Positions 6,897-32,597 are shown, numbered from the stretch's first letter. The stretch is 64,000 bases of DNA from Synechococcus sp. PCC 7502 (GCF_000317085.1 NC_019702.1:712394-776393); one strand, 5' to 3'. Numbers and translations: made by a program. The notes: generated by a model from the letters alone, not told the origin.

Positions 6897-8084
6897 TTAC
6901 TGAACCCGACTAAGTAAAAATAGTCCTGCCCCTAAACCAATTAAATTAGGCAACCAAGCTGCTGCGATCGCACTTAAAATTTCCACCTGCCCCAAGGCTC
7001 CACAGATAAATAGCAACAAATAGTAGCCAAAGATAATCAAAATACTTAACCCAAATCCCCTCGCAGCACTGGTTCGTTGCGGACGCATACCCAAAGGGGA
7101 ACCAACCATAGCAAAAACCACACAAATAAAGGGTAAGGCATACTTTTGCTGGAGGCTTACCTCTAGTTTTTTTACCTCCTTGTAATTACCTGATGCTCTG
7201 ACTAGCTCAATATGGTTTGCCAATTCACTAATATTCATTTCAGCGGAATTACGCTGCTCATTTGCCAAATCCAAGGGCGCACGGGGTAATCTTAGTTGTT
7301 GGCGATCAAATCTCAAAATGCTGCGATAGGAACCATCGGTACCAATTAAATAGGTCGTACCATTTTCTAAATCCCAGACATTGCGATCGGGTAGCCAAAC
7401 GGCGGATTCTGCTGATAAGACCTGCTGTAAAGTACCTTGGGAAAAGTCTAGGATCGTCAACCCTAACATCTTAGTGCCATCAAAGCGACGGGCATAAAAA
7501 CTGCGAATTAAACTTTGCTCTTTACCTCCATTAGGTTGGATAACTTCCCCATACTGCTGGTAAAAAATATCCTTGCTCTTAAACTGGGGATTATCTTGTT
7601 TTAAGGCAGACTTTAAAATAGTTTTAGCTTGCCAATTGGCAGATGGCACCACCACTTCACTAAATAAAAAAGTCATCCCCGAAATAAACAAACTGAGGAC
7701 AAGGGCTGGAACCACTAAACGATAGGGGCTTACACCCGAACTTCTTAAAGCTGTAGTTTCGCCATCCGTAGAAAGCCGACTATAGGAAATAAGAGTGCCC
7801 AGTAACACGGACATCGGAAAGGAATACATCATGAATTGGGGTAGCTGCAAGGCAAAAATCTGAAGTGCCGTCACAATACCTAAACCTGCATCGGTAATTA
7901 ACCGTACTAACTCAAATAGTGAACCAATCACAAGGGCGATCGAGGAAAAAGCCCCAACTCCAAATAAAAATGGAGCTACCATTTCATTACTTAAGTAGCG
8001 ATCCATGATCGAAATATAGGGAACCCAGTGCCTATGGCTTGATGACTTAATTTTGGTACGAGTTGATTTAGTTACGCTTGCCAT
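6897..8084 (-). CDS. LptF/LptG-family permease (YjgP/YjgQ)
   Basis: 395 residues. This family forms the inner-membrane part of the lipopolysaccharide exporter with LptB. The layout is typical: three transmembrane helices in the first ~130 residues (SNEMVAPFLFGVGAFSSIAL; FPMSVLLGTLISYSRLSTDGETTALRSSG is the family loop), a periplasmic beta-rich domain at about 140-300, and three C-terminal helices. Only one such gene is seen here, and cyanobacteria often carry a single YjgP/Q-type protein. The ATPase gene lptB lies 84 bases upstream on the same strand, which supports a shared complex. Confidence 0.88.
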   Translation of the reverse strand: MASVTKSTRTKIKSSSHRHWVPYISIMDRYLSNEMVAPFLFGVGAFSSIALVIGSLFELVRLITDAGLGIVTALQIFALQLPQFMMYSFPMSVLLGTLISYSRLSTDGETTALRSSGVSPYRLVVPALVLSLFISGMTFLFSEVVVPSANWQAKTILKSALKQDNPQFKSKDIFYQQYGEVIQPNGGKEQSLIRSFYARRFDGTKMLGLTILDFSQGTLQQVLSAESAVWLPDRNVWDLENGTTYLIGTDGSYRSILRFDRQQLRLPRAPLDLANEQRNSAEMNISELANHIELVRASGNYKEVKKLEVSLQQKYALPFICVVFAMVGSPLGMRPQRTSAARGFGLSILIIFGYYLLLFICGALGQVEILSAIAAAWLPNLIGLGAGLFLLSRVQ

Positions 8085-17976: not shown

Positions 17977-20900
17977 TTATTTGCTTAAATTAGTCGCTTG
18001 AATTATGCATAATCCCTGCCCCACGGATACCATTTCTCCTTCAGTGCAAAGAAGATCAATTACTGTTCCTGCCACATCAGCCACTATATTCATTTCCATT
18101 TTCATCGATTCTAAAATCATAAGGCGATCGCCTACTTTTACTTCTTCACCTTTTTTTACAAGAATTTGCCAGACATTTGCAGGAATATGAGATACCACTA
18201 GTTCGCTGTTGGGTGGTAAGTCAATACTTGTTTGATCCGATGGCACTTCAGCAGAAGTATTCTCATCCATTAATAGATCATCAGCAATCCACCGTTCTCG
18301 CTCTGCCTCAAATGCAGCCTGTTGATTAGCTTTAAATGCTGCGGCTTCAGGGGCGATCGCTGCTAGGAATTCATTATATTTACTCAGGCTAAAAGTCTCA
18401 TGTTCAATGCGTAACTTAAATCTGCCGTGGATAAAGTCCCGACGATGCTGGAGTAATTCTGCCTCAGACACTGGATAAAACCGAATTTGATCAAAGAAGC
18501 GTAACAACCAAGGTTTTCCTGCTTCAAAGTCTTCAGTTTGGGAACTATCATAGCGATAGGTATTCCACATTTGAATTGTGCGCCCAAAAAACTGATAGCC
18601 TCCTGGTCCTTCCATGCCATAAACACACATATATGCCCCCCCAATACCCACTGCATTTTCAGGAGTCCAAGTCCGAGCAGGATTATACTTAGTTGTCACT
18701 AGGCGGTGACGAGGATCAATGGGAGTGGCAACGGGTGCGCCTAAGTAAACATCTCCCAAACCTAGGACTAGATAGCTGGCATTAAAGATAATTTCTTGCA
18801 CTGCTTCGATGCTTTCCAGTCCGTTAATGCGGCGAATAAACTCAATATTGCTAGGACACCAAGGAGCTTTAGGATTGACCGATCGCACATATTTTTCAAT
18901 TGCCAACTGCGTTGAAGGATCATCCCAAGATAGAGGTAGATAGACAATTCGAGTGGGAACTTCCATGTCAGCGATCGCAGGTAGTTCAGATTCGGCATTG
19001 ATCAGAGTTTCTAATAGGCGTTCAAGGGATAGGAGCCGATGATCGTAATGAATTTGTAATGATCTAATCCCCGGAGTTAAATCCAGAATTCCTGCTAATG
19101 GATGTGCCTCTAACCACGACATCAAAGCATGAACCCGAAACCGCAGATTCAAATCCAGTACCATTTCGCCATATTCAATTAAGATATTATCATCTCCCGA
19201 ACGGCGATATTTTACGGCAATTTGATCATTAGAACCATCAATCTTATGGAGAACTGCCTCTGTATTTAGAGAATTTAGGTTCAGGAAAGGAGAAGAGAGT
19301 GGAATAGATTTTGTCTTTACGGCTTGTAAGGTCGTAATTTCTTGATCCTGTTGTGATTTTAGTTGTAGTGCCTGTTCGTGGGTGATGCGAATGAATCGAA
19401 CGGTATTACCCGGTTTAAGTTGTCCAATTTTCCATATTTCCCCAAGGGCAATCGTGGCGGGACAAACGAATCCTCCCAAACTCGGACCATCCACCGCTAG
19501 AATAATTGGCATATCGCCAGTAAAATCGATCGCTCCGATGGCATAGGCATTATCGTGGATATTGGAAGGATGTAAACCTGCTTCACCCCCATCTTTTCTT
19601 GCCCACTGGGGTTTAGGTCCAATTAATCGAATGCCAGTGCGGGCGGAGTTATAGTGAACTTCCCAATCCGTGGAAAAGAACATTTCTATATCTTCAGGGG
19701 TAAAGAAATCAGGAGCACCGTGGGGACCGTACAATACGCCAATTTCCCAATGTTCAGGATATACAGGGATAAGATTGCTAGATAAAGATGAAGGGGCGAT
19801 CGCCTGATCAGGATTATTAATAGAATTTAGTTTGAGCACATCCCCAACTCGTAAAATTCTGCCACAATGTCCGCCAAATTTACCTAAAGTGAAAGTAGAT
19901 TTACTGCCTAAATAATCAGGAACATCAATTCCATTCCGCACAGTTAAATAGGCACGCAGTCCATTGCCGATGATACCTTTAATCTTTAAAATACTACCCC
20001 TGCTCACAGAAATTGCTTGCCAAAACGGAATAGAATTACCGTCTATTTCCGCCTCCATTCTTGCCCCTGTGAGACAGATAATCGTATCTGTATTAAATCG
20101 TAAAGTTGCCCCATTGATCGTGAATTCTAAACCTGCTGCTGATTCAATATTTCCCACTAAGCGATTGCCATAGCGTAAAGCTAAGGTATCCATTGCCCCC
20201 GAAGGTGGCACCCCAATATTCCAATAGCCCACTCGTCCAGGGTAGTCTTGAACAGTGGTAAAGGTTCCTGCCGCTAAAACATCTATGGTCTGAGGAAGAT
20301 AGGCAAAGGAATTGAGAAAGCGGGTATTCAGATTTCCTGACGCAAACCTCGGATCGGCTAAAATTTGGCGCAAATAATCTAGGTTAGTTTCTATGCCTGC
20401 AATCTGACTATGTGCCAAAGCTGACTGCATCTGAGTGATCGCCTCGGTTCTGGTCTCTCCATAGACAATTAATTTTGCCAACAAAGGATCGTAGTAAGGT
20501 GTAACTTCTGTTCCTCTTTCAATCCAGCGATCGCACCTTATCTCTTTACCTTCATTAAAAATCTCTTCAGGAAATCTCACATCAGTTAAAATCCCCGAAC
20601 TAGGCTGAAAGTTTTTCGTAGGGTCTTCAGCATAAATCCGCACTTGAATCGAATGCCCTTGGGGTGAATGTTGATAGGTGTCAAAAAAGCTACTATCCCC
20701 TGCTGCCAGCCTAATCATCCACTCGACTAAATCAACACCCGTGACCGTTTCCGTAACTCCATGCTCGACTTGCAAACGGGTATTCACCTCTAAAAAATAG
20801 AATTCTTGGCGATCGCAATCAAACACAAATTCTACGGTTCCTGCCGATTGATAATTAACCGACCGACCAAGCCTTAACGCTGCCTCGTATAGTTCTTGCC

Positions 20901-21651
20901 GTTGTTCATGCGTAATTTCTGGGGCAGGAGTTTCCTCTATCACTTTTTGGTTACGTCGTTGCACCGAACAATCGCGATCGCCCAATGCTAAAACTCGACC
21001 TTCACCATCACCAAAAATCTGCACCTCAATATGCCGAGCAGTTTCTACAAATCTCTCTAAATAAATGGCACTTTGCTTAAAGTTATTCTGACTCAACCTT
21101 TGTACTGTAGCATATAGTTGCGGCAATTGTTCTTGACTGCGACAAAGCTGTAACCCAATCCCGCCACCTCCTGCGGAACTCTTGAGCATCACTGGATAAC
21201 CAATCTGCTCTGCTGCTGTTAGTGCTTCTTCTACACTACCTAAAAGTCCAGTACCAGGTAATAAAGGTACTTGATTTTGTTCTGCTAATTCACGGGCGGT
21301 ATGCTTTAGGCCAAAACTTCGCATCTGTTCTGGAGTAGGCGCAATAAAAATAATTCCTTCTCTGGCACAAGCTTCCGCAAATTCCGCATTCTCACTCAAA
21401 AATCCATAGCCCGGATGAATCGCCTCTGCTCCCGTTTGTTTTGCCGCCTCTAAGATTCGTTCCCACCGTAGATAGCTTTCCGATGCTAAAGCCCCACCGA
21501 TCGCTACTGATTCCCTTGCCATCGACACATGCAGACTATAGGTGTCCGCCTCAGAATAAACTGCCACGGTTGATATGCCTAAGCGATCGCATGTTCGTAT
21601 AATCCGACAGGCAATTTCACCACGATTAGCAATAAGAATTTTAGAGAACAT
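17977..21651 (-). CDS. Biotin-dependent urea/guanidine carboxylase
   Basis: 1224 residues. Residues 1-~450 are a biotin carboxylase domain ([23 protein letters not shown]-grasp loop [14 protein letters not shown]). About 460-780 is the KipA/allophanate-hydrolase-2-like carboxyltransferase half. About 830-1060 is the KipI-like half ([20 protein letters not shown]). The C-terminal biotinyl domain carries ESMKME with biotinylated Lys1184. The family carboxylates urea or guanidine with ATP and bicarbonate. A guanidine-I riboswitch and two DUF1989 genes head the same strand, so guanidine is the more likely substrate. No allophanate hydrolase domain or gene is present nearby. Confidence 0.92.
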
Positions 21652-21706: not shown

Positions 21707-22156
21707 TCAAAACTCTATCCCAATATCGTCAGGGAAATTAGAATCAAGTAATTCTGTTAAGCTATAAGGGCAGACATCAGGTAATACTTTTTTGCTAATC
21801 GGTGTTTCACTTAAAACCTGTGCTAATCCCAGTCGAAAGCCCTGTAGCAATGCTTTATCTAAGTAAGACTTCAAGCTAGGATTGTCTTGTAAAAGGTCAT
21901 AAATTTCTTGTCGTTGCAATTGAATTGTTACCTGCCAGCTTCGAGTTCGCTTTTCTGATTGATACTGCCATTTTAAGAGATGTCCGATTAGCAGACCTAA
22001 ACGATTTCTAAGTTCTTGTTGTTGCTGCTTACCCAAAGATGTGATCTCCTCTATTAAATTGTCAAAGTCTAAATGATCTAGCTTTCTTCGTTGCAAAAGC
22101 TCTGTCTGCTCAATTGTCCAAGCGTAAAAGTCTGATTCATATAAATTAGTTTGCAT
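21707..22156 (-). CDS. DUF29 family protein
   Basis: 149 residues. [40 protein letters not shown] and [12 protein letters not shown] are the usual DUF29 blocks. DUF29 proteins are multi-copy, mobile-looking helical proteins of cyanobacteria with no established function. This gene interrupts the carboxylase operon. On its far side lies a degraded copy of the carboxylase 5' end, so it seems to be a late arrival rather than a pathway component. Confidence 0.9.
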
Positions 22157-22340: not shown

Positions 22341-23084
22341 TTAAGTCTGATTATTTATTACAGAATTTGCTATCTCAATAACAGTTTTTTTCTTGCCTAA
22401 TTTAATTGCAACCGTATATAAATACCCATTCTGCTCCCACGAAACATGGCTGAAATTTCCATGACAATTTGCTCCACAAATTCCCGCAACATAATAGCCG
22501 TCTACTCCTTTAGTGAGTGATACAGCACCACTTTCAGAATAAGATTTTTCATAACGCCTAGGTTCAAGATTAGATAAGCCTCGAAGATCCGATATGGATT
22601 TTTTAAAACGAATAGCTAAACTAGGCGAACTGGAAGTTAGTTTTTCTCCACTGAAGAAAGCAACATTTGTCTGATAACGCTCTAATAGCCCCCAAGTTAT
22701 TCCTATAGAATATCTATTAGTATTAGTTCCATAAGCATCTATGTAGGCATAATGTTTTCTATCTTTTAGATATGAAGGAATTGGTACTGTTGAAGGAAAA
22801 ATAAGCGGCACTTTGGTCATCTTTAGTAACTTGGAGATACATGGCCTAAAAATTGGATCGACTTTTTTTAGTGCTAGCTTTTTATAAATATCTGAGCTAT
22901 CGCTACAAAATTTGGCATCTTCAGTATCAGCTAATTTCCCAATTTCTTCTAGACTAAATGATTTCAATCGATCTTCAGCGATAGTTTGCTTTTCGGGGAT
23001 TTGGACTTCAACTTTTGGTGTGTTGTATTTAAGTTGTAGAGTTGCGGATAAAAGTGTAAGGATAACTAATTCTTGTATTTGCAT
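22341..23084 (-). CDS. Unknown putative exported protein in the guanidine operon
   Basis: 247 residues from ATG 23082-23084. An upstream in-frame ATG at 23135 would overlap the ACT gene, whereas the chosen start leaves a 4-base gap. The N-terminus MQIQELVILTLLSATLQLKY looks like a short signal peptide or anchor. The mature part has beta-rich segments and a Cys-containing C-terminal region (GYYVAGICGANCHGNFSHVS). I recognise no family. Its place between the ACT gene and the carboxylase suggests a link with that pathway, but function is unknown. Confidence 0.65.
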   Translation of the reverse strand: MQIQELVILTLLSATLQLKYNTPKVEVQIPEKQTIAEDRLKSFSLEEIGKLADTEDAKFCSDSSDIYKKLALKKVDPIFRPCISKLLKMTKVPLIFPSTVPIPSYLKDRKHYAYIDAYGTNTNRYSIGITWGLLERYQTNVAFFSGEKLTSSSPSLAIRFKKSISDLRGLSNLEPRRYEKSYSESGAVSLTKGVDGYYVAGICGANCHGNFSHVSWEQNGYLYTVAIKLGKKKTVIEIANSVINNQT

Positions 23085-23088
23085 AAAA

Positions 23089-23472
23089 TTATCGCAATAA
23101 CTCCATAGCCTTATCAGCTTGAGCCACTGGCACAAATAGATGATCGTGGTAGTAAGCTGAAACTGGATTAGTACTAATATTATGCTCGGAAAGTTTGGTG
23201 GCGATCGCTGCGATAAATCCTACGGCTTCCAGACTAGAATGCACTGACAGCGTAATCATCCTAAATACCGAGTTATAGGAAAGTGCAGCCTTATCAGCAT
23301 GTTGGCGGAGCAGAATTAAACTTATACCTTCATCTTCTTGAAATAGGCATACAGGATTGAATTTGATCAGATCCTCCAACTTTTGATTAACGGTACAAAA
23401 TACATACTCACCATCTCGCAGGACGGGCTGCATTGACTTCAATAATACCGACAGATTAGTTTCACCAGACAT
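23089..23472 (-). CDS. ACT-domain protein
   Basis: 127 residues. The first half (LSVLLKSMQPVLRDGEYVFC, EDEGISLILLRQHADKA) and the second half (FRMITLSVHSSLEAVGFIAAIATKLSEHNIS, then YYHDHLFVPVAQADKAMELL) match the small ACT-type ligand-binding proteins built from two ACT-like repeats. Such stand-alone proteins probably sense amino acids or related ligands. It starts 10 bases after the second DUF1989 gene ends, in the riboswitch-led operon, which hints at sensing a nitrogen metabolite. Confidence 0.82.
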   Translation of the reverse strand: MSGETNLSVLLKSMQPVLRDGEYVFCTVNQKLEDLIKFNPVCLFQEDEGISLILLRQHADKAALSYNSVFRMITLSVHSSLEAVGFIAAIATKLSEHNISTNPVSAYYHDHLFVPVAQADKAMELLR

Positions 23473-23481
23473 TTTTGTATT

Positions 23482-24132
23482 TTAAGAATCTGCATCCCAA
23501 ATCAGTAATTGAATCGGTGTAGGATTATAGGCATTGCAAGGATTATTAATCTGAGGACAATTAGAAATCAGGAATAGTACATCCATCTCAGCCCGCAGAT
23601 CGACAGTGCTACCAGGATCAGAAATTCCATCCACAATCTCTAAAGTGCCATCTTCACTGACAGGAACATTCATAAAGAAATTGATGTTACTGACCAGATC
23701 CTGTTTCCCCATGCCATAATCCTTCAGAGCATAAAGATAGTTCTCCACACAGGCATGAAGCCACTTCTTATCCAATCCATACCGCACGGAATTACTCTCC
23801 CGACTGCAAGCCCCACCAGATGTGTCATGCTTACCGCAAGTATCATTCAGAACTGTCATTAGAACATTGCCATCACTGGAATAGAGCTTTGTCCCTGTTG
23901 TGATAAAAATATTGCCTTGATTTCTAATTGTATCAGGCGCACTATAGCGATCGCTGGTATCCGCCGCATTATAAATCAATACATCCACTGCCTGATTTCC
24001 ACCTAAATCAACTATTCTCAAGGTTTGACCTTTTTTAATTAATTGCATCCACGGACGACGGGCGGGTAGCACCTGATCATAAATCGCTTCTTTGGGATCG
24101 AGTGCTTTAAGTTCAATTGATGTAGCTAACAT
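23482..24132 (-). CDS. DUF1989 protein, UAAP2-type carboxyguanidine deiminase subunit
   Basis: 216 residues. DUF1989 (urea carboxylase-associated) proteins carry a conserved metal-binding cluster, here Cys99, His102 and Cys109 in NDTCGKHDTSGGACS. SNINFFMNVPVSEDG and GSTVDLRAEMDVLFLISNCPQINNPCN are further family blocks. Homologous UAAP pairs have been shown in other bacteria to deiminate carboxyguanidine to allophanate. The paralogue directly upstream is the other subunit, with a 52-base gap. Control by the guanidine-I riboswitch at 25036-25168 is likely. Confidence 0.9.
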   Translation of the reverse strand: MLATSIELKALDPKEAIYDQVLPARRPWMQLIKKGQTLRIVDLGGNQAVDVLIYNAADTSDRYSAPDTIRNQGNIFITTGTKLYSSDGNVLMTVLNDTCGKHDTSGGACSRESNSVRYGLDKKWLHACVENYLYALKDYGMGKQDLVSNINFFMNVPVSEDGTLEIVDGISDPGSTVDLRAEMDVLFLISNCPQINNPCNAYNPTPIQLLIWDADS

Positions 24133-24184: not shown

Positions 24185-24937
24185 TTAACGGGATAGGATT
24201 GATAACTCGGCAAAATAAGCATCAGTATTTTGGAAGCCTCGTACTGCTTCTGGACAACTGGTTCGACAAAGATCGTCACTCATAGGCTCAGGGGAATTCC
24301 AAACCGTAACTTTAATGGGACTTGGATCGTAAACAGGATTAGGGTCAAGTACATGGGGCGTATTAGAAAGCACTGCTAATACATTCATCTCAGCCCTCAA
24401 GTCAATAAAATCACCCGCCTGCGCTACTTTCTCCGCCCAGATCAAGTTACCATTACCATCCACAGCTACATGGGCAAACCAATTTACATTGGGCATAATA
24501 TCTCGCTTGCCCATATTCCGCTTTGCTAATGCCAGTAAAAAATTATCACGGGAACTGCGATAAAAACTATCTTCACCATACTTAGCAGAATTCGTAGCAA
24601 CATTACTACAGCCTGACAAGGTATCGTGATGACGGCAGGTATCTTCTGTAATCGAGAACAAAACTCTTCCCATATCAGAATATAAGAGCTTTCCTTTTTT
24701 TAGAAACGCATTAAATTGAATCTTGGCGGTATCGGCGGCATTGTAGCGTTCAATTACGTTGTCAGCATTGTAACAAAGAAAGGAAATACCCCTAGAACCT
24801 TCGGGAGCAGCTATTCGCAATGTAGTTCCCTTTTTAATAATTCTTGACCAGTATGTTCCTCCAGGAATTACTTCATCCCAAATAACTAAGGCGGGATCTA
24901 GGTCAGTATTAAGATCAAATAGTGGCTTTGTCAGCAT
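24185..24937 (-). CDS. DUF1989 protein, UAAP1-type carboxyguanidine deiminase subunit
   Basis: 250 residues, paralogous to the next gene. The metal cluster is Cys101, His104 and Cys110 in EDTCRHHDTLSGCS. PNVNWFAHVAVDGNGNL and GDFIDLRAEMNVLAVLSNTPHVLDP match the family. The ATG is preceded by AAGGAG about 7 bases upstream (complement of ~24944-24951). It is the first gene after the minus-strand guanidine-I riboswitch. With the second DUF1989 protein it should form the heteromeric deiminase that acts after the carboxylase. Confidence 0.9.
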   Translation of the reverse strand: MLTKPLFDLNTDLDPALVIWDEVIPGGTYWSRIIKKGTTLRIAAPEGSRGISFLCYNADNVIERYNAADTAKIQFNAFLKKGKLLYSDMGRVLFSITEDTCRHHDTLSGCSNVATNSAKYGEDSFYRSSRDNFLLALAKRNMGKRDIMPNVNWFAHVAVDGNGNLIWAEKVAQAGDFIDLRAEMNVLAVLSNTPHVLDPNPVYDPSPIKVTVWNSPEPMSDDLCRTSCPEAVRGFQNTDAYFAELSILSR

Positions 24938-25035
24938 GATTTACTCCTTGATGAATTAATTACGAAGCGCATGTCTGCAATAGCGAAAGCCCAGGAAGCC
25001 CCGAACAAGTCGCCATTAAGACTCCTGTTGGTTGA

Positions 25036-25168
25036 CTCTCCCGGGCTTTTATCCCGCCGTGTGACTAATTGATCAAATTGATCAAGTTTTACAAAAACTT
25101 TTTTTAATTAGCTGCTTCTCTCGGACCAGCCTTAAAGTTGTTTACACCTTAATCGGAACCCTAGAAGC
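25036..25168 (-). promoter_or_regulatory. Guanidine-I (ykkC subtype 1) riboswitch, minus strand
   Basis: Read on the minus strand: TTCTAGGGTTCCG, then CTGGTCCGAGAG, then ACACGG joined to CGGGATAAAAGCCCGGGAG. These are the conserved elements of the ykkC/guanidine-I aptamer in the right order. The variable arm (AAGTTTTTGTAAAACTT region) forms a hairpin. The 3' CCCGGGAG can also pair with CTTCCTGGG (complement of 24990-24998), giving an alternative fold. That hairpin is not followed by a run of T, unlike the plus-strand switch. It precedes the first DUF1989 gene. Confidence 0.93.
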
Positions 25169-25188
25169 TAATATTTATTAATGTTTTA

Positions 25189-25232
25189 ATCATAATCCTA
25201 AAAATGCTAATCACTTCTGTATTCATTAATAC
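25189..25232 (-). promoter_or_regulatory. Candidate NtcA-activated promoter for the guanidine operon
   Basis: GTA-N8-TAC (GTATTCATTAATAC) lies at 25219-25232. On the minus strand it is followed, after 24 bases, by TATGAT at 25189-25194, a good -10 box. This is the layout of class II promoters activated by NtcA, the global nitrogen regulator of cyanobacteria. The site is palindromic and lies in the shared divergent promoter region, so it could serve either side, but spacing fits only the minus strand. Predicted from sequence alone. Confidence 0.5.
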
Positions 25233-25394
25233 ATTTAAGATATTTATAAAATATTTGACAAAATTTAAGATTGGTATCTACAGGCACAAAAGTTTTTAGA
25301 CTAAGTTGATAGGTTACGCCTGTATCTGAACCCATACAATTAAGAGTTTTATAAAAGTTTTAAATTTATAGGTTCAAGTTAAAAATTTGTTTGC

Positions 25395-25519
25395 TTCTAG
25401 GGTTCCGATTTGACTGTCCATTTCAAATGCTGGTCCGAGAGAGGCAGGGTAATTCTAAGGTAGCTATAGAATAATGTTGCTTTAGAGTTACTTACACGGC
25501 GGGATAAAAGCCCGGGAGG
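25395..25519 (+). promoter_or_regulatory. Guanidine-I (ykkC subtype 1) riboswitch, plus strand
   Basis: Conserved blocks in order: TTCTAGGGTTCCG at 25395-25407, CTGGTCCGAGAG at 25430-25441, then ACACGG and CGGGATAAAAGCCCGGGAG ending near 25518. The last block is identical to that in the minus-strand copy, while the variable arms differ. It lies 75 bases upstream of the first ABC importer gene. The genes downstream (NMT1/SsuA-type transporter) are a known association of this riboswitch class. Confidence 0.95.
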
Positions 25520-25566
25520 AGCTTCAGCTGTTGCTGCTGGATGTTTCTTCTGGGTTTTTGTTTTTT
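25511..25566 (+). terminator. Intrinsic terminator overlapping the guanidine aptamer
   Basis: CCCGGGAG at 25511-25518 can pair with CTTCTGGG at 25547-25554 over eight base pairs (two G-U). An inner CAGC/GCTG hairpin sits between them, and a T-rich tract (TTTTTGTTTTTT) follows at 25555-25566. Since CCCGGGAG is part of the aptamer, ligand binding and termination should exclude each other. That predicts guanidine turns the importer genes on. Confidence 0.85.
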
Positions 25567-25594
25567 AAGATTATTCACCTAACCTAAAATCTCT

Positions 25595-26638
25595 ATGAAA
25601 TTGCGATCGCTCCTTTCCTCTCTTCTCCTGTTCATTGCCACCCTAACGCTGACAATTAGTTGTACCAACCCCGCAACTAATGTGGAAACCAAACCTCCCG
25701 TAGCATCAACTCCAGATAAAGTGCAGGTTCGTCTGGGATTTAGTGCTTGGCCCGGCTGGTTCCCGTGGCAGGTTAGCCAAGAACAAGATATATTTAAACA
25801 AAATAATGTAGATGTCGATTTGAAATGGTTTGACGGTTATTTAGAATCCATAAGTACATTAACCGCAGGACAAATTGATGCCAATAGCCAGACTCTAGGA
25901 GATACGGTTAGCTCAGTTGCTGGTGGTGCTGATCAGGTAATTGTTTTAACCAATGATAACTCTACGGGTAACGATAAAATTATTGTGCGTAAGGGTATTA
26001 ATTCCATCGCCGATCTAAAAGGTAAAAAAGTTGCAGCGGAAGAAGGAACAGTTGATCACTTTCTGCTTTTACTAGGACTCCAAAAATCTGGCTTAACTCC
26101 TAAGGATATTGAATTTGTACCTTTAGAAACTGGTAAAGCTGCAACAGCCTTTGTGGGTGGTCAAGTCGATGCAGTGGCTGTATTTGCCCCCTTCACTACT
26201 CAAGCTCTAAAACTAGCGGGTAGTAAGGAGCTATTTAGCTCTAAGGATTTTCCAGGTTCAATTTCCGATCACTTGGTATTCACGCGTAAATTTGTGGATG
26301 CCCATCCTGATCAAGTACAAGCAATGGTAGATTCTTGGTTTGCAACTTTGGACTATATCAAAGCTAATCCTGCTAAAGCTAATGAAATTTTAGCTAAACG
26401 GGCAGGCGTATCTCTGGATGAATATAAACAGTATGCTGATGGTACCAAGATTTTTACAATTGAAGAAAATCTAAAGGCATTTGAAGATGGCAAAGATCGA
26501 ACTTCTTTGAAATTTGCGGCAAGAGAGATGAGTAAGTTTCTATTTGATATTGGTTTAGCTAAATCAACCCCAGATGTAGATAAATTATTTGACGATCGCT
26601 TTGTCAAGGCATACGCTCAAAAAGCCAAGAAGGCTTAA
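25595..26638 (+). CDS. ABC transporter substrate-binding lipoprotein, probable guanidine importer
   Basis: 347 residues. Signal peptide of ~22 residues ending LTISC with lipidated Cys23. The mature protein is NMT1/SsuA-like (VRLGFSAWPGWFPWQVSQEQ, WFDGYLESISTLTAGQIDAN, VGGQVDAVAVFAPFTTQAL), the fold used for nitrate, taurine, sulfonate and related small ligands. The guanidine-I riboswitch directly upstream makes guanidine the most likely ligand, though that is inference. The permease and ATPase genes follow on the same strand. Confidence 0.9.
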   Translation: MKLRSLLSSLLLFIATLTLTISCTNPATNVETKPPVASTPDKVQVRLGFSAWPGWFPWQVSQEQDIFKQNNVDVDLKWFDGYLESISTLTAGQIDANSQTLGDTVSSVAGGADQVIVLTNDNSTGNDKIIVRKGINSIADLKGKKVAAEEGTVDHFLLLLGLQKSGLTPKDIEFVPLETGKAATAFVGGQVDAVAVFAPFTTQALKLAGSKELFSSKDFPGSISDHLVFTRKFVDAHPDQVQAMVDSWFATLDYIKANPAKANEILAKRAGVSLDEYKQYADGTKIFTIEENLKAFEDGKDRTSLKFAAREMSKFLFDIGLAKSTPDVDKLFDDRFVKAYAQKAKKA

Positions 26639-26671
26639 TTATTGTGGAAATTTAGATTAACTACAAATGCT

Positions 26672-27526
26672 ATGAATGAAAGCCATGAGGAGCAGAGATC
26701 AATTAGGGAGTTTATCCGACCCCAAAAAGTTAACTCCAGTGTGTTTTGGCAAATTGCTGAAGATATCCCCCCCCGTTTAAAGATGGTTTTCACCATTACT
26801 TCCATTGCTCTTCCTTTTTTGTTATGGTGTGGAGTTAGCATCTTTGGACAGATTGATAGTAAGTTTTTACCTTCTCCTTGGCAAGTATTCATAGCATTTG
26901 GAAGACTGTGGAATAGTGGAGAACTGCAAAAAGATACAATCGCTAGTCTATGGCGGGTAGGAGTTGGTGCCTTATTAGTAGCCCTATTTTCGATTCCAAT
27001 TGGGGTTTTGATGGGGAGTTTTGCTAGTATTCGTGCCTTGCTAGAACCTCTATTCGGATTGGTGCGGTATATGCCTGCTCCCGCCTTTATTCCGTTACTA
27101 ATTCTCTATTTAGGAATTGGCGAAGAACCTAAAATTATGCTGATTTTTATTGGCGTATTTTTCTTTAATTCTTTAATGGTGATGGATACAGTTAAATTTG
27201 TACCAAAGGAATTAATTGAATCGACTTATATTCTTGGTGGGAACCGAACTTCAACCCTATTTCAAGTAATATTTCCCTATGTGACCCCAGGAATTCTAGA
27301 TGCCTGTAGAATTAACTTAGCCGCCGCTTGGCAGTTAGTAATTGTGTCTGAGTTAATTGCCGCCACTGAGGGACTAGGACGAAGAATTAGCGTGGCAGGT
27401 AGATTTCTTAAAACCGATGAAATTTTTGTGGGATTGATTGTAATTGGCGTGATTGGTCTATCCTTTGACTTGTTTTTTCAAGCCATGATTCGCTTTTCCT
27501 GTCAGTGGGCAAGCCAAAAACGCTAG
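26672..27526 (+). CDS. ABC transporter permease, probable guanidine importer
   Basis: 284 residues from ATG 26672; a TTG 30 bases earlier is possible but less likely. It has about six transmembrane helices. The family loop (LIESTYILGGNRTSTLFQVIFPYVTPGILDA, near residues 185-215) matches the EAA-type coupling segment of SsuC/TauC/NrtB permeases. It follows the binding-protein gene closely and precedes the ATPase gene by 57 bases. The three proteins should form one importer in the inner membrane. Confidence 0.9.
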   Translation: MNESHEEQRSIREFIRPQKVNSSVFWQIAEDIPPRLKMVFTITSIALPFLLWCGVSIFGQIDSKFLPSPWQVFIAFGRLWNSGELQKDTIASLWRVGVGALLVALFSIPIGVLMGSFASIRALLEPLFGLVRYMPAPAFIPLLILYLGIGEEPKIMLIFIGVFFFNSLMVMDTVKFVPKELIESTYILGGNRTSTLFQVIFPYVTPGILDACRINLAAAWQLVIVSELIAATEGLGRRISVAGRFLKTDEIFVGLIVIGVIGLSFDLFFQAMIRFSCQWASQKR

Positions 27527-27583
27527 GCTTCTAAATTAACTCAGTTTTTCTACCGTGTACTTGATTTACTATGTGCTGGTTTT

Positions 27584-28348
27584 ATGTATTTGCAAATAAA
27601 AAATCTCTATAAAAGTTTTCCAATTAAGTCGGGAGAATTATTAGTCCTCAAAGATATAAACATGACGATCTCCCAAGGTGAATATATTTGTGCTGTGGGA
27701 GCATCTGGATCTGGCAAATCCACACTGTTACGTCAAATTGCTGGACTAGACCGTCCGACTACTGGGGAAGTCAGAATTGATGGTCAGCTAATTACTGCAC
27801 CTGGACATGATCGCGGCATGATTTTTCAGCACTATACCCTTTATCCTTGGATGTCGGTTTTAGAAAATACAGAATTTGGACTGAAGTTATTAGGTGTGCC
27901 TAAGAAATTACGCCGTGAGCAAGCTAGTTACTATTTAAGTGTGGTCGGATTAACCAATTTTGCCCAAGCTTTACCGAAACAATTATCTGGTGGCATGAAA
28001 CAACGAGTAGCGATCGCCCGTGCCTTAGCCTCGGAACCCAAGGTATTACTAATGGATGAACCTTTCGGGGCATTGGATATTCACACAAAAGAATCTATGC
28101 ATGAGTTCATGATTGATCTCTGGCAACGTACTAACATTACAATTTTTATGATTACCCATGATGTGGAAGAGGCAGTATTTTTGGCAAATCGCATCTATGC
28201 CCTTGGCTCTCGTCCGGGTACTGTCCGCAAAGAAATTACAGTGGAATTGCCTGATCGCAGCTTTGCCGTTAAGCGTCATCCGATCTTTCACGATTACCGT
28301 GATGAATTAATGGAACTACTGCGTCAGCATGGTAAAGAAGCGATGTAG
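27584..28348 (+). CDS. ABC transporter ATP-binding protein, probable guanidine importer
   Basis: 254 residues. Walker A is GASGSGKST, the Q-loop region is IFQHYTLYPWMSV, the signature is LSGGMKQRVAIARAL and Walker B is VLLMDEPFGALD, followed by the MITHDVEEAVFLA H-loop. This is the SsuB/TauB/NrtD subgroup. It is the last of three importer genes behind the plus-strand guanidine-I riboswitch. No clear terminator is seen after it before the convergent aldolase gene. Confidence 0.92.
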   Translation: MYLQIKNLYKSFPIKSGELLVLKDINMTISQGEYICAVGASGSGKSTLLRQIAGLDRPTTGEVRIDGQLITAPGHDRGMIFQHYTLYPWMSVLENTEFGLKLLGVPKKLRREQASYYLSVVGLTNFAQALPKQLSGGMKQRVAIARALASEPKVLLMDEPFGALDIHTKESMHEFMIDLWQRTNITIFMITHDVEEAVFLANRIYALGSRPGTVRKEITVELPDRSFAVKRHPIFHDYRDELMELLRQHGKEAM

Positions 28349-31220: not shown

Positions 31221-31707
31221 ATGAATGTCCTAAATGCAAAAAAAACATTTGTAGAGACTTTTGACACGATTTACTATCATCGGCATATAGGTGTAGAAAA
31301 GATTCATTTAGTCTTGCAAAGCCAAAGTGAAGGAGTAAGCTTGCGTGGAATTGCCCGATTAAGTGGATTAGCATACAACACAATAGTAAGCATCATTAGG
31401 CAAGCCTCGCAGAAAGCTCAAAGGATTCATAATCAGGAGGTTAAATCAGTAGTGATGAAATGTGGTCGTTCGTGGAAAAAACAGAAAAACTCCTTACCAA
31501 CAGAACTTGAGTCACAAGACTGTTGGATTGGGGTAAGCATAGCGGATAATAGTGGATTGATTTTAGCGGTAAGAGTCGGAAAATATACTGATGAGTAAAT
31601 CGAGGAAATAGTCGTAAGTACTGAAGGTAAAACGGATTACCAGCATTGGAATACAGATGGATGGGGAGGATATGAGAGAGTATTGACAGAAGAAGTAGAG
31701 CATTATA
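31221..31707 (+). pseudogene. IS1-family transposase, 5' part, truncated and with nonsense codon
   Basis: From ATG 31221 the frame includes GVSLRGIARLSGLAYNTIVS (InsA-type HTH) and DCWIGVSIADNSGLILAVRV (DDE core). The usual zinc-ribbon start is damaged: ECPKCKKN is present but in another frame, so a deletion or shift lies near 31240. A TAA at 31596-31598 stops the frame at GKYTDE. Beyond it the same frame continues (VVSTEGKTDYQHWNTDGWGG) to the IS5 insertion point. Confidence 0.88.
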
Positions 31708-32597
31708 GAGCCTGTTTCATATCTATTATGAGCAAGATTTATGATGCTTAGAAAATGCTAAATCCATACTCAAGTAGCCTAACAGATAAAGAATGGGAAA
31801 TTATAGAACCATTGCTCCCAAAGAAAAAGCAAACTAGACCGCCAACTTGGACAAAAAGACAAATTTTAGACGGCATACTCTACCAACTCAAAAACGGTTG
31901 TAATTGGCGAGATATGCCCCGAGACTTACCACCATTCTCTACAGTGTATCGATACTACAAAGAGTGGAAAGATACAGGTACATTTACTGCGATTATGGAA
32001 GCTTTACATGCAACAGCCCGTGAACAGTCAAAAAAAATCAAAATGGACAACTTTAATCATCATTGACTCACAAGCAGTGAAAAATACTTGTAATGCAAGT
32101 ATAGAATCCAAGGGCTTCTGCTCCTACAAAGCAACTAACGGGATCAAAAGACATTTAGCCGTTGACACTCTGGGATTTCCTTTCTTTACCTATTTAACAA
32201 GAGCAAATGTATCAGATGACCAAGGACTGATTGAAATGTTAACGATTAACATTGATTACTTCAAATCGAAGCCAGATGACATTACCCTAACTACGATATT
32301 GCTGGATAGTGGTTATCATATCGAAAAATTGACGACTGATTTACAGAAGGTTTATCCTGAGATTATGACTAAGATTAGGTTTGAAATTTCTCCTAAGGTA
32401 TCAAAGCAACAGAAGGCAGAAAAAGGTCTGTCTGGGTTTGTAGTTGTGCCGACAAGGTGGGTACTTGGGTTGAAAGATGCAAAATCTTAGTTAAGAACTT
32501 TGAGAGAACTCTCGTTAATGCTACAGCTAAACTCAATCTTTGCTTTATTCGCTTGATGCTAAAAACAATTGCTACTCATGAGATATGAAACAGGCTC
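31708..32597 (+). mobile_element. IS5-family insertion sequence inside the IS1 element, 890 bp
   Basis: Terminal inverted repeats start GAGCCTGTTTCATATCT at both ends (31708-31724 and the complement of 32581-32597), 17 of 17 identical. TATA flanks both sides (31704-31707 and 32598-32601). Removing the element and one TATA restores the IS1 reading CAT TAT ATT GGC (HYIGKDRTQK), which proves the order of insertion. It carries a decayed two-part transposase. Confidence 0.92.
31755..32588 (+). pseudogene. IS5-family transposase, frameshifted and missing the catalytic Glu region
   Basis: First segment 31755-32066 encodes MLNPYSSSLTDKEWEIIEPL and so on, the N-terminal domain, ending REQSKKIKMDNFNHH. 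The second segment (to 32490) continues one base forward at a run of eight A: TLIIIDSQAVKNTC with the first Asp, and TTILLDSGYH with the second. At GFVVVPTRWVLG the frame is lost. The usual VVER..W block with the catalytic Glu is deleted, and the tail (CKILVKNFERTLVNATAKLN) continues in another frame to TGA 32586-32588. The A-run shift might be programmed; the later deletion is not. Confidence 0.88.

Follow-up and report, generated by a model that had tools for sequence, protein, structure and literature searches.

Does a pair of guanidine riboswitches on opposite strands of a cyanobacterial chromosome join the uptake and the breakdown of free guanidine in one module, and do the two switches act in the same manner? 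Guanidine is toxic and rich in nitrogen, and what it does in photosynthetic organisms is only beginning to be understood. The question is raised by a 64,000-nucleotide stretch of the genome of Synechococcus sp. PCC 7502 (GCF_000317085.1 NC_019702.1:712394-776393), referred to here as the window. An initial annotation of the window described two diverging guanidine-I riboswitches, one leading a catabolic operon and the other an importer. The locus is a real, well-supported guanidine module; the initial annotation was broadly correct and presented the module as more complete than it is. The probability that the locus as a whole functions as a guanidine-responsive divergent module is estimated at about 0.78. 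A start-codon switch on the catabolic arm and an action of the nitrogen regulator NtcA, both proposed below, are each less certain than the module itself.

Two diverging Guanidine-I aptamers

The whole window was scanned with all Rfam models using cmscan. Exactly two matches reached the gathering level, both to Guanidine-I (RF00442, curated gathering score 63 bits), positioned on opposite strands and diverging from each other (Table 1). They are the only copies of RF00442 in the entire 3.58-Mb genome. The initial annotation had named a low covariance score of either copy as a reason to abandon the assignment, and both copies score above the gathering level. The gap between the aptamers is 210 bases according to the Rfam boundaries; the distance given previously was about 230 bases. 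The core ACACGGCGGGATAAAAGCCCGGGAG is the same in both aptamers and the variable arms differ, as had been described. In a comparison at the level of the family consensus, the strongly conserved letters of RF00442 are matched in both copies. Both aptamers are ordinary members of RF00442, and the interest of the locus is in its architecture. The only other Rfam match in the inter-aptamer gap is a non-significant one to a miRNA family, and the whole genome contains no Guanidine-II riboswitch. Folding predicts an anti-aptamer hairpin on each arm, the formation of which is mutually exclusive with that of the aptamer.

The two arms of one and the same genome have a mean identity of 0.63, which is lower than the values of 0.73 and 0.69 for orthologous arms of different genomes. 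A recent duplication or gene conversion of the arms is therefore unsupported.

Genes of the importer and catabolic arms

The plus-strand arm encodes a complete ATP-binding cassette (ABC) importer of the NMT1 type, as had been claimed, consisting of a substrate-binding protein, a permease, and an ATPase. Of 44 genomes, 12 have orthologues of the substrate-binding protein with at least 67% identity, and every one of these is no more than about 3 kb from an RF00442 match; in genome G053, the aptamer near the orthologue points away from it. From its genomic context, the importer likely carries guanidine. Fragments of transposase-like open reading frames are located a few kilobases past the importer operon (31221-32490, plus strand).

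The expected DUF1989 genes and biotin-dependent carboxylase are borne out on the minus-strand arm by family matches. The two DUF1989 proteins, encoded by genes named here cgdA and cgdB, are distinct carboxyguanidine deiminase subunits of the UAAP1 and UAAP2 types, and both score above the curated cut-offs. Guanidine and urea carboxylases are told apart by an aspartate at the position corresponding to residue 1330 of the K. lactis enzyme, and an aspartate at position 1584 is needed as well (PMC11410670). In phmmer alignments to 5i8i and 3va7, D709 of the window carboxylase aligns to N1330 and D967 to D1584, the latter close to where the printed alignment is cut off. Because D709 and D967 occupy the published signature positions, the carboxylase is predicted to act on guanidine.

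The carboxylase gene follows about 3.4 kb further along the minus-strand arm. It is separated from cgdB by three unrelated genes, encoding an ACT-domain protein, an uncharacterised protein, and a DUF29 protein, and by a gap of 184 nucleotides. In most relatives with a full operon cgdA, cgdB, and the carboxylase gene are contiguous, and the three extra genes were seen in the window genome only. In the second genome of the genus, G001, the carboxylase gene and cgdB are on different contigs; linkage in this genome is uninformative, as the contig ends 33 bases upstream of the carboxylase gene. The cgdB gene of G001 is followed by two genes that, judged by eye, resemble those of aldehyde-deformylating oxygenase and acyl-ACP reductase, as in alkane biosynthesis (L039 5285-7994).

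A single locus does not hold the complete guanidine carboxylase pathway. The enzyme of the last step, allophanate hydrolase, is split into the products of two adjacent genes about 2 Mb away (G000 C3:2701323-2702989; loci L004/L086): an amidase scoring 595 bits to TIGR02713, above the cut-off, and a separate AH_C-domain protein. Neither gene is positioned behind a Guanidine-I aptamer. The same split pair directly adjoins the cgd operon and its aptamer in genomes G050 (L085) and G052 (L084), which supports the role of the unlinked pair as an allophanate hydrolase. The previous description of the locus as a self-contained island was too strong, given the distant hydrolase without a Guanidine-I aptamer and the three genes that interrupt the operon. 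The span assigned to the module (24185-28348) leaves the carboxylase gene outside.

Recurrence of the paired layout in cyanobacteria

The Guanidine-I aptamer is present in 70 of 145 genomes. Head-to-head pairs within 700 bases occur in 11 of the 145, the window genome included, and fall into four families (f1, f7, f13, and f16). At least two more genomes with such pairs are among the matches listed in a survey of 390 genomes of the class. The named relatives are Pseudanabaena species, Lyngbya, Leptolyngbya, and one Gloeobacterales genome; the host of the window itself is, in agreement with the photosynthetic origin assumed previously, a Pseudanabaena-like cyanobacterium. The paired layout, the recurrence of which was not mentioned in the initial annotation, recurs across cyanobacteria and is not unique to the window genome.

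One arm carries cgd genes and the other an importer in the f1 genomes and in the f16 genomes G096, G145, and G273, the contig of G096 stopping after the binding protein. The carboxylase pathway is replaced on one arm of G043 and G081 by an arginase-family protein of the guanidinase type, and the other arm of G043 encodes an ABC importer. Genes resembling those of metallo-hydrolases, creatininase, glutamine synthetase, and isochorismatase were recognised by eye between and after the importer genes of G043 (L048 10202-15023). The second aptamer of G032 has no importer beside it (L044 7812-7959), and it has a degenerate core and scores 56.3 bits. Such decay in the absence of an importer is expected if the aptamer is maintained for the importer.

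Expression platforms of the two arms

The 3' end of the importer-arm aptamer can be consumed by a 64-nucleotide hairpin, and none of 200 shuffled sequences folded as stably. As modelled by folding, the hairpin is a classic intrinsic terminator, and the importer arms of relatives have the same terminator design, with variants.

The corresponding hairpin of the catabolic arm is followed by the tract UUUCGCUAUU, which is kept as such in all seven aligned leaders. The ligand-bound state was modelled by folding the leader with the 3' end of the aptamer blocked. Under this constraint, AAUGGCG pairs with CGCUAUU and the accessibility of the cgdA AUG increases from 0.01 to 0.55. The change has the same direction in all eight leaders of the start-codon-switch type, from 0.00-0.01 in the ligand-free state to 0.31-0.63 in the bound state, and was not found in the importer arms of the same family. 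In other lineages, the start codon of the cgd leaders does not change from fully hidden to open; L060 has a partial swing (0.24 to 0.65). Shuffling of the middle of the leader reproduced the change in 0 of 300 sequences for the window, 11 of 300 for G001, and 24 of 300 for G031. When the start codon was also required to be hidden without the ligand, the numbers were zero, zero, and one, respectively. A long perfect inverted repeat resembling a small mobile element is inserted within the loop of the start-hiding hairpin of G036 (L045 about 7340-7440), the stem of which is intact.

The two arms thus appear to use different expression platforms, a terminator in one and the hiding of a start codon in the other, according to the folding models. 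The previous statement that both arms respond together to one ligand retains the common ligand and is simplified with regard to the response.

Putative NtcA site between the aptamers

The inter-aptamer gap contains a perfect GTA-N8-TAC palindrome, which was not mentioned in the initial annotation. Canonical NtcA-activated promoters have this box centred near -41.5, together with a TAN3T -10 box (PMC3898017). The sequence pattern of a class II NtcA promoter, in which the two elements are about 20-24 nucleotides apart, is present in the gap with a spacer of 24 nucleotides. The predicted transcription start is located just before the catabolic aptamer, near 25182-25184, and the centre of the site would be about 42-44 nucleotides from it. 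Over the whole window, GTA-N8-TAC is no commoner than expected by chance. In 13 inter-aptamer gaps, it occurs eight times, with 0.5 expected from the density at the same loci (Poisson 7e-8). After dereplication, five sites remain, with 0.3 expected (2e-5). The enrichment was matched by 1 of 2000 composition shuffles; the test was carried out after the site had been spotted in the window. Promoters predicted by a sigma-70 consensus scan were no better than expected by chance. The guanidinase operon of Synechocystis is repressed by ammonium (PMC10094980). The box would probably limit transcription to nitrogen shortage.

Table 1 Features of the guanidine locus, in positions of the window
Feature	Position	Strand	Evidence or remark
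Guanidine carboxylase, predicted (annotated urea carboxylase)	17977-21651	-	TIGR02712, full-length, 1890 bits vs cut-off 1304; signature aspartates D709, D967
DUF29 protein, inserted in operon in this genome only	21707-22156	-	PF01724 163 bits; absent in relatives
Uncharacterised protein, without family match	22341-23084	-	ATG at 23084 likelier start than mechanical TTG at 23135
ACT-domain protein, inserted in operon in this genome only	23089-23472	-	PF10000 and PF13840; absent from relatives' operons
cgdB, second carboxyguanidine deiminase subunit, DUF1989 UAAP2 type	23482-24132	-	TIGR03424 344.8 bits vs cut-off 285
cgdA, carboxyguanidine deiminase subunit, DUF1989 UAAP1 type	24185-24937	-	TIGR03425 303.6 bits vs cut-off 206; PF09347
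Predicted hairpin hiding cgdA start region (Shine-Dalgarno AAGGAG and AUG), ligand-free state	24927-24984	-	AUG accessibility 0.01 ligand-free vs 0.55 bound; 0/300 shuffles
Upstream open reading frame of 18 codons (MATCSGLPGLSLLQTCAS), overlapping OFF hairpin	24960-25016	-	Sequence
Predicted ON hairpin (AAUGGCGA : UCGCUAUU), forms when aptamer keeps 3' end	24973-25022	-	Constrained folding; core pairs invariant in 7 aligned leaders
Predicted OFF hairpin, aptamer AAAGCCCGGGAG paired with CTTCCTGGGCTTT, no U-run after	24986-25049	-	Fold, region z -3.3; conserved in 8 related leaders
Guanidine-I (ykkC subtype 1) aptamer, catabolic arm	25036-25175	-	RF00442 69.8 bits, E 2.3e-10
Candidate -10 box TATGAT	25189-25194	-	24 nt downstream of NtcA-type site, 13 nt before catabolic aptamer
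NtcA-type palindrome TGTATTCATTAATACA (GTA-N8-TAC), between aptamers	25218-25233		Perfect palindrome
Guanidine-I (ykkC subtype 1) aptamer, importer arm	25386-25520	+	RF00442 78.8 bits, E 2.4e-12
Predicted intrinsic terminator, importer arm; long hairpin consuming aptamer 3' core (GGGATAAAAGCCCGGGAG), U-rich tract at end	25501-25564	+	-36.3 kcal/mol, z -7.6
Substrate-binding protein of candidate guanidine importer, NMT1/SsuA type	25595-26638	+	PF13379, PF09084, TIGR01728; context
ABC permease	26642-27526	+	PF00528; relatives align from about internal Met, 26672
ABC ATPase	27584-28348	+	PF00005

Alternative explanations

The ykkC subtypes fold alike and can be told apart by a few bases of the pocket (PMC6031431). 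Subtype 1 has an adenosine where subtypes 2a and 2b have a pyrimidine. One or both aptamers could be subtype 2 variants that sense ppGpp or PRPP rather than guanidine. This is very improbable in view of the matches of both copies to the strongly conserved positions of RF00442, the absence of matches to any other riboswitch family at E up to 1, and the guanidine genes in the neighbourhood. The importer could carry another nitrogen or sulfur compound, such as nitrate, taurine, sulfonate, or urea, and merely adjoin the catabolic operon. The substrate-binding protein is most similar to the aliphatic sulfonate family TIGR01728, the solved chains closest to it are of proteins that bind nitrate, sulfonate, and taurine, and its score of 159.7 bits is below the cut-off of 333.9 bits for TIGR03427, the family of binding proteins linked to the carboxylase. 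However, the importer has a guanidine aptamer and a terminator of its own, and all close orthologues of the binding protein were found near a Guanidine-I aptamer. Furthermore, the importer of the Synechocystis guanidine operon (Sll1080-1082), which is raised in guanidine-producing strains, is also SsuA-like (PMC8390497). Transport of a different substrate is therefore considered unlikely.

The manner in which the catabolic arm is read out is more contested. Both arms could be plain transcription-termination switches, with the catabolic hairpin as a weak terminator lacking a proper U-run, and with an incidental pairing of the start codon. Guanidine-I riboswitches are usually transcriptional ON switches (PMC12186494). 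Among the cyanobacterial arms examined, only the decayed arm of G032 lacks an anti-aptamer hairpin, and in other lineages most cgd arms have five to six U in eight positions. The changes that would compensate each other in a start-codon switch are few. Nevertheless, the conservation of the tract that follows the catabolic hairpin and the swing in AUG accessibility shared by all leaders of the start-codon-switch type, unmatched by shuffles of the window leader, argue against plain termination, which retains a chance somewhat short of even. Another possibility is that the upstream open reading frame in the catabolic leader is translated, and that its translation, coupled to the hairpin, regulates cgdA in a manner similar to attenuation. 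The reading frame has AGGAG just 5' of its ATG and ends 22 nucleotides ahead of the cgdA start, and AUGGCG and the peptide SGLPGLSLL are retained in G001 and Pseudanabaena. However, relatives lack the Shine-Dalgarno sequence and the position of the stop codon varies. Because the conserved codons overlap the conserved pairing strands, translation is not needed to explain their conservation. The reading frame is probably a by-product of RNA pairing, and regulation by its translation is improbable.

In addition to the low score of the binding protein to TIGR03427, several observations weigh against parts of the proposed module. Riboswitch control or co-transcription of the carboxylase gene is uncertain because of the intervening three genes and 184-nucleotide gap and because the gene is not beside cgdB in G001. 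Several homologous gaps lack the NtcA-type site, its position varies, and in the window it is 153 nucleotides from the importer aptamer. The predicted release of the cgdA AUG is accompanied by hardly any change in the accessibility of the Shine-Dalgarno sequence (0.49 to 0.54). Leaders of the start-codon-switch type come from three lineages only, which is why the support from compensatory changes is thin, and the support from shuffling is weaker in the relatives G001 and G031 than in the window.

Comparison with known guanidine systems

The locus is similar to known Guanidine-I riboswitches in the sequence and fold of its aptamers and, on the importer arm, in the ON logic with a 3' core common to aptamer and terminator. 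It differs in having two copies head to head, and in that the catabolic arm appears to hide a start codon instead of forming a terminator with a U-run. The carboxylase, two-subunit carboxyguanidine deiminase, ABC importer, and riboswitch control resemble those of Raoultella, Klebsiella, and Pseudomonas syringae. The guanidine loci of enterobacteria have two riboswitches on adjacent units, one Guanidine-I and one Guanidine-II (PMC12186494), whereas the window has two diverging Guanidine-I copies and a split, unlinked allophanate hydrolase. The gdmH-ghaAB-sll1080-1082 operon of Synechocystis PCC 6803 is another instance of cyanobacterial guanidine use led by Guanidine-I with an SsuA-type importer, and it is repressed by ammonium. 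In contrast to the window, it contains a nickel guanidinase instead of the carboxylase, and a single operon encodes the importer, the chaperones, and the enzyme. A guanidinase-type gene occurs together with the divergent layout in G043 and G081. The use of two guanidine switches for uptake and breakdown is thus already known from enterobacteria. No report of a divergent Guanidine-I pair, of mixed readouts, or of the NtcA-type box was found in the literature searched, outside of which lies a 2025 PNAS paper on cyanobacterial guanidine riboswitches (10.1073/pnas.2519335122).

Proposed working of the module

The aptamers, gene families, signature residues of the carboxylase, terminator, recurrence of the layout, and enrichment of the NtcA-type box were computed; we infer the response to guanidine, the substrate of the importer, the switch at the start codon, and the action of NtcA. 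The locus is probably a nitrogen-scavenging module for free guanidine, with two divergent transcription units that would begin inside the inter-aptamer gap, where the NtcA-type box would probably restrict transcription to nitrogen shortage. In the absence of guanidine, the 3' end of each aptamer would pair with a strand farther downstream. In the importer leader, this pairing would give rise to a strong intrinsic terminator; in the catabolic leader, the product would be the hairpin without a U-run, and the cgdA start region would be locked in a second hairpin. Upon guanidine binding, each aptamer would retain its 3' end, so that the importer terminator could not form, and the alternative helix of the catabolic leader would free the cgdA start codon. 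Guanidine taken up by the importer would be converted by the carboxylase and the two-subunit deiminase to allophanate, which would then be broken down by the split hydrolase encoded elsewhere.

In a tentative and, on present estimates, rather doubtful reading, a single ligand is read out in two ways, by transcription termination for uptake and by release of the start codon for breakdown, and both arms share a nitrogen-control box. If it is true, the locus computes "nitrogen-short AND guanidine present", and the dose and timing of the import and the degradation of a toxic nitrogen source could be tuned separately. Arms that differ in readout would allow two platforms of the same aptamer class to be compared side by side in a natural setting, and would make the locus a compact, inducible part that works in both directions for use in cyanobacteria. 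That the paired layout recurs in several families of cyanobacteria, and that one arm carries either of the breakdown pathways, suggests selection for separate control of guanidine uptake and breakdown.

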